Origin: Sulfolobus acidocaldarius SUSAZ
GTDB lineage: Archaea; Thermoproteota; Thermoprotei_A; Sulfolobales; Sulfolobaceae
NCBI GenBank assembly: GCA_000508305.1
Contig: CP006977.1
Span: 1,644,621-1,708,620 of the forward strand
DNA: 64,000 nt
Direction: 5' to 3'
In this document: positions 29,329 to 49,124 of the stretch, piece by piece
How the letters are laid out: every line of letters begins with the position of its first letter
Position numbering within the stretch: the first letter of the stretch is position 1
Translations under genes and position numbers: made by a program
The notes under the pieces: model-generated
Told to the model about the DNA's origin: nothing
The model's database searches: none
Seen by the model: the letters and a program-made list of their open reading frames with translations, nothing else

Positions 29329-29376
<48 letters not shown>

Positions 29377-29737
29377 CTGAGTTGTAGAATTAAACCTAAT
29401 TTTCTGCACTGAACTACATTACATCTACGTAAAGTATTTCACACGTGGATTGTTTTTGTCTTAGAGGAAGAAGTAAAGAAGGTAAAATGAAAAATTGAGA
29501 AGGAGGAAACTAGAAATAGCATCAGAGGAGTAGATGAAGGCTAATACAGAGAAAGTAGTTAGCCAGATTTAGGAAATGAGGAGGAAAAGGTAAGATGAAG
29601 TGCCTATTCGATTCCTTTGCTATAGACCTATGGGTAATGCATGTTATCGACGTTGAACTGGATTAAGAAATACTTAAGGAAAATACTGACAAGCGACTAA
29701 CATAGTATGATACTACCAGGTGACAGAGAATCGACAA
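29377..29737. other. Intergenic stretch, possibly a decayed gene pair
   Basis: No intact gene. The plus strand from 29460 to 29605 reads in broken frames as charged helical sequence (EEEVKKVK, then KIEKEE, EMRRKR), followed at 29594 by a short frame MKCLFDSFAID. This order faintly recalls a VapB antitoxin followed by the start of a VapC PIN domain, but at least four stops or shifts would be needed. Treated as unproven. Confidence 0.2.
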
Positions 29738-29763
29738 GCCTCGCCTTTTAAGGCGAGGTGAGG
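29738..29763 (+). repeat. IS200/IS605-like left-end hairpin of a mini-element
   Basis: The hairpin gcctcgccttttaaggcgag with a following gtgagg is the plus-strand form of the repeat at 29330. It forms the left border of a roughly 350-base element ending at 30093. Confidence 0.55.
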
Positions 29764-29782
29764 TTTTTATAGTATCGTTAAG

Positions 29783-30076
29783 ATGTTAAATTTGGTTAAA
29801 ATGATGCGTGAGGAAACCCATGGAAATGGGTATATATTAGTTCAATTAAGTGTCCTCATGCTGAAAAACAATATCCTTGAGTCTCAAGGAGGGTGGAATG
29901 AGGGTTCCTCCACGGGTTCCTCCACCAGAGGGATAGGGGTAAAATGGTTGAAGACCCAGCCTTTGGTCTACCGTTGGATGAGTGGAGTGGGGTGGGTAAC
30001 CCCCACTAGTTATGAGACGATGAGGGTGAAGGCGGTAAATCATAAACCTGTGAACCGCTCTAAAGGAACCCTTTAG
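29783..30076 (+). pseudogene. tnpB: Relic of the 3' end of a tnpB gene in a mini-element
   Basis: The region codes for the tail of a Sulfolobus TnpB: the final residues YETMRVKAVNHKPVNRSKGTL-type ending (stop at 30074-30076) lie within the right-end hairpin, as I recall for IS605-type elements of this genus. Further upstream one frame reads VYISSIKCPHAEKQYP, which fits the TnpB zinc-finger start with the second Cys lost. Everything before the zinc finger is missing, so this is a short internal-deletion derivative between a left-end and a right-end hairpin. In TnpB systems the guide (omega) RNA comes from this 3' part, so RNA-coding capacity may remain. Confidence 0.6.
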
Positions 30077-30093
30077 GGCGGGGAGGAGGTCAG
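30067..30093 (+). repeat. IS200/IS605-like right-end hairpin of the mini-element
   Basis: The hairpin ccctttaggg followed by cggggaggaggtcag includes the tnpB stop codon. It closes the element that begins with the hairpin at 29738. In intact elements the guide part of the omega RNA lies just after this point. Confidence 0.6.
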
Positions 30094-30355
30094 CTTAGTT
30101 AGCCTATACCCTGGCTAGTTAAGGTATGGAGCAGTTACACTAAAGGATAGGTTATACACTAACATAGTTGAGACTATCACAGTAAACGTCTATCATACGT
30201 TGAAAGTGAGGTAACTTATCAACATGTACTATCATAATTCGTTTTAAATCAACTAAAAATTGTTAAAAACTATTTAAAAATCCAGATTTTTCTATATCCA
30301 TAACTTTAAGTTAAGATATATCTATTTATTTATTTGAATTTCCAAAGTATTATCT

Positions 30356-47651: not shown

Positions 47652-49124
47652 TTACTTACTTTGTTTTTGTAACAGCTTCAGTGAAAATTTCTTTAAGTAA
47701 CTTCTAACATCATGGAAGACTATATTGTCATGTGGACAAGCCTCTACGCAATCGCCTACACCTATACACTTAAATGACTTAAATTCTCCTTTTTTGATGA
47801 AATTTGCCCTCATGTCCGTTAACCCAACAGGGCATGCTAATGCACAGTCTACAGTTTTACAGTTCAGACACTGTTGAGGGTCCTTTACCTTTAGCTTAAA
47901 AAGACCTAAATACCCGAAGAATTGGTTAAATGTCCCCCAAGCACATATACCCTCAGTTACACATGCATAGTTGCCTAAAAATGGCATAAACATAAACTGG
48001 AAATACCAAATCACATTAAAGTAAAGACTCGCATAGAATTGTACAACGTCATTACCTAAGACTGAAAATGAAATTACTCCCTCGTAGTTGAAATAGGATA
48101 AGACAGCAAACACGATCAAAGACACCCACACTGTAATAATTACCCACTTGTACCAATTAGTCATCTTAGAGGTCAATGTCTTTCTTCCCAGCTTAGAACT
48201 CCTATTGTATTTCCTCATAGAGCCTTGAAATGTGCCCTGTAACATGAATGGGGCTGTACAAGTGACAGAGCATATTTGCCTACCTCCAAATAGAAATGAG
48301 AGAATTGCTGTTACTGCAAAAGTTCCTATTATTCCATCAATCAAGTATGACGGCTCCACAGGACCATAAGTCCCTAAACCATTAAACCACATATAAGGAA
48401 TATATTGTACACTACTTGATATTGGGGAGAAGTTAGGAAGCCAAATACTATAAAACGCATACGCAAACATCATTAATAAATATCTTATCTTATTCTCCAA
48501 CTTATTCAGCTCTAATACTCTAAATGAACCTAATAATCCCATCCACACTCCCATATTTATCATAAACCACGGACTTGCTGTTATTGTAGCAAAAACAGAC
48601 AGAAAATCCATCAAGGCAAACAAAGGGCTAGTCAAAGGGAAGAAACCAAAATTACTATACAAGCCTGTAACATTACTTATCATCCCTGTTTCAAAATTCA
48701 GTATTCCACTAGCGAACCAAGAAAGAGAAAATGCCAAGAGGAGAATTAGGAAAGCTACTCTAGAATTGCTAAGGTAACTAACCTTTCTCTGGATATTGAA
48801 CTTTACCCTATACATTAAATATGCGGAAACCAATAAACCCGAAATCACAGCATAATATGTGGGCAAATTGTAAGCTTTCGAAAAAAATTCAAATGAATAC
48901 ACTACGACGAGAACAGATAAGATATCTATTAACTTATATGGATAATTTGATAGTGACAACCTCTTATAGTATAAACTCTGAAACAGAAATCCAATAAGTA
49001 CCATAGTTGCAAACGTAACTGGTAAAGTTAAGAAAGGGATTAGTAGGGCTATCATGATTGTAAAAATATATGAATTTCTAAAAATGTATTCCACAAATCT
49101 ATTTAGGATTTTCACATTATTCAC
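47652..49124 (-). CDS. NapH-like membrane protein with two C-terminal [4Fe-4S] motifs
   Basis: This 490-residue protein has about nine or ten membrane spans, a Cys-rich loop RQICSVTCTAPFMLQGTF near residue 285 of the type seen in NapH/NosR/CcoG-like proteins, then a last span and a C-terminal ferredoxin domain (CLNCKTVDCALACPVG and CIGVGDCVEACPHDN, near 420-470). Such proteins oxidise quinol and pass electrons on, or the reverse. A ggtgatgag ribosome site supports the ATG at 49124. It follows the pilin-signal protein gene by 97 bases on the same strand, next to the molybdoenzyme operon, so it probably serves that enzyme. Confidence 0.8.
   Translation of the reverse strand: MNNVKILNRFVEYIFRNSYIFTIMIALLIPFLTLPVTFATMVLIGFLFQSLYYKRLSLSNYPYKLIDILSVLVVVYSFEFFSKAYNLPTYYAVISGLLVSAYLMYRVKFNIQRKVSYLSNSRVAFLILLLAFSLSWFASGILNFETGMISNVTGLYSNFGFFPLTSPLFALMDFLSVFATITASPWFMINMGVWMGLLGSFRVLELNKLENKIRYLLMMFAYAFYSIWLPNFSPISSSVQYIPYMWFNGLGTYGPVEPSYLIDGIIGTFAVTAILSFLFGGRQICSVTCTAPFMLQGTFQGSMRKYNRSSKLGRKTLTSKMTNWYKWVIITVWVSLIVFAVLSYFNYEGVISFSVLGNDVVQFYASLYFNVIWYFQFMFMPFLGNYACVTEGICAWGTFNQFFGYLGLFKLKVKDPQQCLNCKTVDCALACPVGLTDMRANFIKKGEFKSFKCIGVGDCVEACPHDNIVFHDVRSYLKKFSLKLLQKQSK

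Follow-up and report, generated by a model that had tools for sequence, protein, structure and literature searches.

The window analysed here, by which we mean the whole 64,000-nt stretch of the Sulfolobus acidocaldarius SUSAZ genome (CP006977.1, positions 1,644,621 to 1,708,620), carries next to a P450 gene, which we take to be CYP119-like, a mini-element with the hallmarks of a transposon derivative (Table 1). It lies in a decayed PIN-like gene (vapC-like, by eye; about 29580–29720), the homologue of which is open in the sister genome (G023, locus L182). The original prediction, that this is a mini-element composed of a left-end hairpin, a tnpB 3' tail starting in the zinc-finger codons (at about 29806) and a right-end hairpin overlapping the stop codon, was borne out when these parts were read, the hairpin at 29739–29758 and the stop (TAG at 30074–30076) inside the right-end fold. 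The right end at 30093 also proved correct, but the left end had been placed too far in, at 29738, since alignment of 11 copies and the empty sites in G023 put the true start at 29725, directly after TGAC. The tail is degenerate, as the ~45 nt for the NADLNGAIN motif are absent and the frame is broken past KCPH. The element's ORF found no match in Pfam and the element itself none in Rfam up to E 1.

Table 1. Features of the mini-element (positions in the window)
Feature	Position	Strand	Basis
Whole mini-element	29725..30093	+	369 nt, one of 11 copies; copy alignment and empty sites
TGAC target tetranucleotide, host side, presumed TnpB TAM	29721..29724	+	10 copies with TGAC, 1 with TAAC; 8 empty sites in G023 with TGAC
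Left-end hairpin CCTCGCCTTTTAAGGCGAGG	29739..29758	+	Direct reading; common to minis and full elements
TATA-like box TTTTTATA, directly 3' of left end, putative RNA promoter	29764..29771	+	Motif only
Stem S1 GCGTGAGGA / TCCTCATGC	29806–29814 with 29853–29861	+	Homologous stem in zinc-finger codons of intact tnpB; arms coevolve across minis
Hairpin S1a (CCCAT / ATGGG), enclosed by S1; S1 and S1a form the presumed omega-RNA 5' domain	within 29806..29861	+	
Degenerate tnpB 3' tail	29806..30076	+	Protein and DNA matches to tnpB of L093 and L087
Presumed omega-RNA scaffold, S1 to terminal stem	29806..30093	+	Fold z-score and covariation
Terminal stem CCGCTCTAAAGG / CCTTTAGGGCGG, right-end hairpin region	30055..30081	+	MFE and consensus fold
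Right-end tetranucleotide TCAG, element end	30090..30093	+	10 copies with TCAG, 1 with TCAA
Presumed 16-nt guide, host flank	30094..30109	+	TnpB-system rule (established knowledge)

The window's genome (G000, a single contig of 2,061,920 bases) harbours 11 copies of the mini-element (E ≤ 6e-136), which are 347–369 nt long and have sharp alignment ends, the ten besides the window copy being 88–95% identical and scattered. When the two flanks of each copy were joined and matched against G023 (2,225,959 bases), 8 of the 11 gave clean empty sites that have TGAC immediately at the junction and lack a target duplication. For a ninth copy, TGAC adjoins the right flank in G023 and the left flank is rearranged, the G023 target corresponding to the window copy has diverged, and the joined flanks of the eleventh found no match in G023. 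The clean empty sites imply either movement since the two genomes diverged or departure of copies from G023. The hairpins at both ends are homologous to the ends of IS605 elements encoding a Y1 TnpA (full tnpA–tnpB elements in G030), and together with insertion 3' of a tetranucleotide and the presence of many copies devoid of a transposase gene of their own, this makes the mini-element a non-autonomous member of the IS200/IS605 elements (PATE/MITE-like). G000 has no match to the Y1 transposase profile (PF01797), hence no TnpA acting in trans from the same genome, which is needed for present mobility although not for descent. The empty sites thus show past activity, and the source of TnpA has been lost or was outside.

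A second, much shorter type of element is found in the same genome, with a single hairpin and 43 nt (form TTAC|AAAA...GCCTCGCCCTTTAGGGCGGGGAGGARGTCAG), apparently the start of the left end joined to the right-end hairpin. One lies in the window on the minus strand (29330–29372, with the complement of TTAC at 29373–29376), and there are at least 21 further places in G000. Length was identical in all 22 examined, and ~10 have precise empty sites in G023, which indicates that these REP-like end-only units moved in G000.

Where does the interior of the mini-element come from? It corresponds to the 3' end of a tnpB gene of IS605 type that is intact in relatives, within elements of ~1.8 kb encoding a Y1 TnpA of 137 aa and a TnpB of ~433–445 aa, which Pfam recognises as Y1_Tnp (E 3.9e-44) and as OrfB_IS605 plus Cas12f1-like TNB, respectively. 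Alignment of genes and minis reveals that the outer stem S1 already exists in the zinc-finger codons of intact tnpB, and that the minis begin at S1. Derivation from a TnpB of G000 was considered and rejected, as the family is represented there by the minis and a 38–48% identical cousin only. At E ≤ 1e-60, no intact cognate TnpB was found in G000, G003, G010, G014, G016 and G020. A tree built on the 3' core has the minis of G000, G003, G010, G016 and G023 clustered (96% support) around a single tnpB (G023, locus L093), and the remaining minis nested among intact elements from their own region of the tree. Intact relatives are also present in the S. islandicus plasmid pHVE14 and in the virus SMV1, which makes these a possible outside source of both TnpA and TnpB. 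The L093 gene (566–2225) encodes an intact TnpB of the cognate family, behind a 107-aa ORF, with neither an adjacent Y1 TnpA nor a visible left hairpin, and is possibly a domesticated TnpB.

Elements of this kind are widespread. A DNA search returned matches in 25 of 31 Sulfolobaceae genomes, many of them at the right end only, and across the order the core turned up in 33 of 147 genomes. Minis that have left end, S1 and core were recognised by eye in G000, G003, G010, G012, G014, G016, G018, G020, G021, G023 and G030; G029 has a degraded one and G009 another. The same plan is seen in at least 11 Sulfolobaceae genomes and in two from another family (G102 and G064). A second form, present in G021, G012, G029 and G064, has a rebuilt S1 in which the 3' arm comes first and has a new partner (TCCCC GTAA GGGGA). 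Among the minis of G021 and G012 (L101, L127, L129, L136 and L137), 5' halves are 85–94% alike between genera, whereas 3' cores are only 78–83% alike, some of them being closer to the local tnpB, a contrast that hints at gene conversion with resident elements. In G102 (L187, G102:C10:44200-45300), two omega-RNA cores stand in tandem and in the same orientation, separated by a short spacer that contains Ns.

The guide RNA of TnpB systems consists of the 3' end of tnpB plus the right end of the element, the guide itself being taken from the flank, and these are the parts that the minis have kept. The comparison with Sulfolobales TnpB that had been proposed shows that the sequence and the fold of the window copy are homologous to the tnpB 3' end and right end of intact elements. 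The fold is stable (z −3.8 for 29790–30093, and −4.6 for one mini of G030), and a consensus computed with RNAalifold for 24 minis from 8 genomes has 89% of cells paired and changes on both sides in 32 of 71 pairs (0/500 shuffles as high). The end hairpins, which TnpA needs as DNA, were left out when the interior stems were analysed. In the same 24 minis, 90.6% of interior cells are paired, and 23 pairs and 68 cells have changed on both sides, versus no more than 14 and 30 after sliding of the partners. In a mini-dominated clade of 20 sequences (the minis of G000, G003, G010, G016 and G023 and divergent ones grouped with them), the counts are 17 pairs and 44 cells versus at most 10 and 18 (0/500 shuffles), whereas for the minis of G016 and G010 alone covariation is not significant (60/500 shuffles). 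Pair counts are those of alignment A1, as MAFFT in the absence of the left end misaligned S1, and the shuffles ignore relatedness, although swaps of S1 arms between lineages give the same pattern group by group. In these swaps, with arms anchored by hand, the S1 duplex reaches −17.3 kcal/mol with its own arms against −12.6 kcal/mol with swapped ones (0/20000 permutations). Among the 11 copies in G000, paired positions vary more often (22/140) than unpaired ones (20/229), and most changes keep pairing. Part of the fold signal could be inherited from the tnpB genes; the covariation of the interior supports a complete omega RNA that selection has kept.

One rival explanation is that of a plain MITE or PATE, in which TnpA in trans acts on the ends, nothing else matters and the interior is no more than an inert remnant of tnpB. 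The fit of the architecture to a known Halanaerobium PATE, the absence of a cognate TnpB from G000 and the mobility of the 43-nt units, which shows that ends alone suffice, all speak for it. However, an inert interior would be expected to decay or disappear, whereas interior stems covary in minis that are non-coding and S1 arms coevolve far past the swapped controls, which leaves this explanation unlikely, if still the most serious of the rivals. As to how the RNA would be made, most minis have a TATA-like run 20–32 nt 5' of S1 (the window copy has it at about 42 nt), which suggests that a promoter at the left end now drives the RNA directly.

TnpB with its omega RNA cuts where a TAM is followed by a match to the guide; the guide is taken from the flank of the element, and such cutting favours retention of the element. 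In the current view, cleavage of empty donor sites by TnpB is what retains transposons in genomes. We favour, and consider probable, the explanation that the minis are non-autonomous IS605-type transposons, consisting of two ends and a complete TnpB omega-RNA gene, whose guide in cis let both TnpB and TnpA be borrowed. In this scenario, (i) TnpA acting in trans would move the mini by its ends, (ii) an RNA beginning at the promoter beside the left end would carry the scaffold and then flanking bases as guide, (iii) excision would leave an empty site (TGAC plus guide) for TnpB, acting in trans, to cut and (iv) repair from a sister copy would restore the element. Transcription, binding by TnpB and cutting are what we infer. 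Since the guide is read from the element's own flank, it must be provided in cis, which would explain why minis kept the RNA while losing both proteins; with an omega RNA of its own, a mini needs TnpB only in trans, and loss of the RNA would end that benefit. As relatives throughout the Sulfolobales have preserved the fold, the RNA probably benefited the element also where TnpB came from another source.

The guide had been predicted to come from the bases past the right end. At the eight empty sites in G023, the first 16 of these bases show, by eye, 0, 0, 1, 2, 2, 2, 3 and 4 mismatches attributable to genome divergence, so sister copies do match TGAC-adjoining empty targets; this part of the prediction stands for them but does not extend to the window copy, whose sister site has diverged and whose host gene has decayed. 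A search of G000 with the window guide (30094–30109), as had been suggested, yielded no second site with TAM and guide at fewer than 3 mismatches. The prediction of an orphan omega RNA is upheld by homology to the 3' end and right end of intact tnpB elements, by an omega-RNA-like fold and by stems maintained through compensatory change across the minis of many species. It is not supported where it proposed use by a TnpB from elsewhere in the same genome, as G000 has neither an intact TnpB of the cognate family nor a Y1 transposase. The orphan omega RNA has good support as regards its anatomy and a past function, and none as regards activity in G000 today. The same applies to present use in G003, G010 and G016, which also have minis without an intact cognate TnpB. 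With both proteins gone, the copies in G000 are probably idle, or orphaned, now, and trans use is plausible in relatives that have both parts, e.g., G023 and G030. Both parts are combined in an S. acidocaldarius DSM 639-like strain, with 3 minis and one intact cognate TnpB, and in an S. tokodaii-like strain, with 9 minis and 7 tnpB loci. Either the fold was maintained beside a cognate TnpB and then outlived it, or it is served by something that was not recognised.

One candidate for such service would be another TnpB of G000, for example the 473-aa protein or those of 380–423 aa. Such TnpBs exist in the genome and have the terminal sequence of the right end in common with the mini, over its last 25–34 nt in the 380–423-aa ones. 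Sharing is limited to that terminal stretch, though, the tnpB tails upstream being different and without DNA match to the scaffold, the 473-aa protein is only 38–48% identical to the cognate family, and a TnpB usually accepts its own scaffold only, so that we regard this as very unlikely. Equally improbable is that the RNA was co-opted as a regulator of host or element, working through base pairing or together with a nuclease-dead TnpB rather than by cutting. Minis do persist in genomes that have no cognate TnpB, but their positions and flanks differ between sister genomes, as is the case for mobile elements and not for fixed regulators.

Guide-RNA copies that stand without a nuclease gene have a precedent in the ORF-less HEARO (IscB omega RNAs), which differ from the minis in that they belong to IscB, are bacterial and have the guide at the opposite end. 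The closest element in plan is a PATE-like one in Halanaerobium hydrogeniformans, with a left hairpin, the last 58 nt of tnpB and a right end (PMC7290912), and a presumed TnpA-in-trans movement is another common trait. In contrast to that element, for which an omega RNA is unmentioned (PMC7290912), the mini is multicopy, occurs in many genomes, and has a covarying fold and a TATA-like box. In S. acidocaldarius itself, the tnpB gene SACI_RS09365 has been reported to show processing sites together with small-RNA coverage, as would fit an omega RNA (PMC12817955), and circular forms have been reported in two Sulfolobales (PMC12558985). Like these TnpB omega RNAs (also termed sotRNA or reRNA; PMC12817955), the putative RNA of the window is composed of tnpB 3' end and right end with a guide from the flank, but its gene stands without a tnpB gene. 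In the literature searched, which misses most subscription papers, no paper describes TnpB minis reduced to an omega RNA, hence novelty is provisional.

Like the window mini, SMN1 and SMN2, the Sulfolobus miniature noninverted-repeat elements (PMC3718332, PMC3839810), are short, non-autonomous and found in Sulfolobales. SMN2 was annotated as a MITE in SMV1 and supposed to use an IS200 transposase (PMC3839810). That the window element is SMN2 was rejected, there being no meaningful sequence match. SMN2 is like the mini in plan (left end, tnpB tail and right end), and differs in sequence and origin, as the 3' half corresponds to the tail of a 408-aa TnpB from an element with a 213-aa resolvase-like TnpA, a helix-turn-helix serine recombinase of the IS607 type (by eye), whereas the mini comes from IS605. 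SMN2-type minis covary as well: they are 95.5% paired, and 13 pairs have changed on both sides versus at most 8 when slid.

Judged by these comparisons, the plan of a putative guide-RNA mini is a recurrent one, seen again in the second form with its rebuilt S1 and in SMN2 with its IS607 TnpB. We see an even chance that guide-only transposons, SMN2 included, form a long-lived class in the Sulfolobales that stems from both IS605 and IS607 elements, depends in trans on a transposase to move and on TnpB to be kept, and has the RNA as its sole product. If true, this would provide a sizeable collection of natural single-guide omega RNAs and alter our picture of Sulfolobus MITEs; and if an RNA-only element is conserved, it represents a natural test, predicting that a guide RNA in cis and a nuclease in trans suffice for maintenance. 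As for the distribution of SMN2, it is found twice in the virus SMV1 (L185:33927-34177 and 47749-47999) and at further loci (L196–L221 and L223), with 25 copies in G011.
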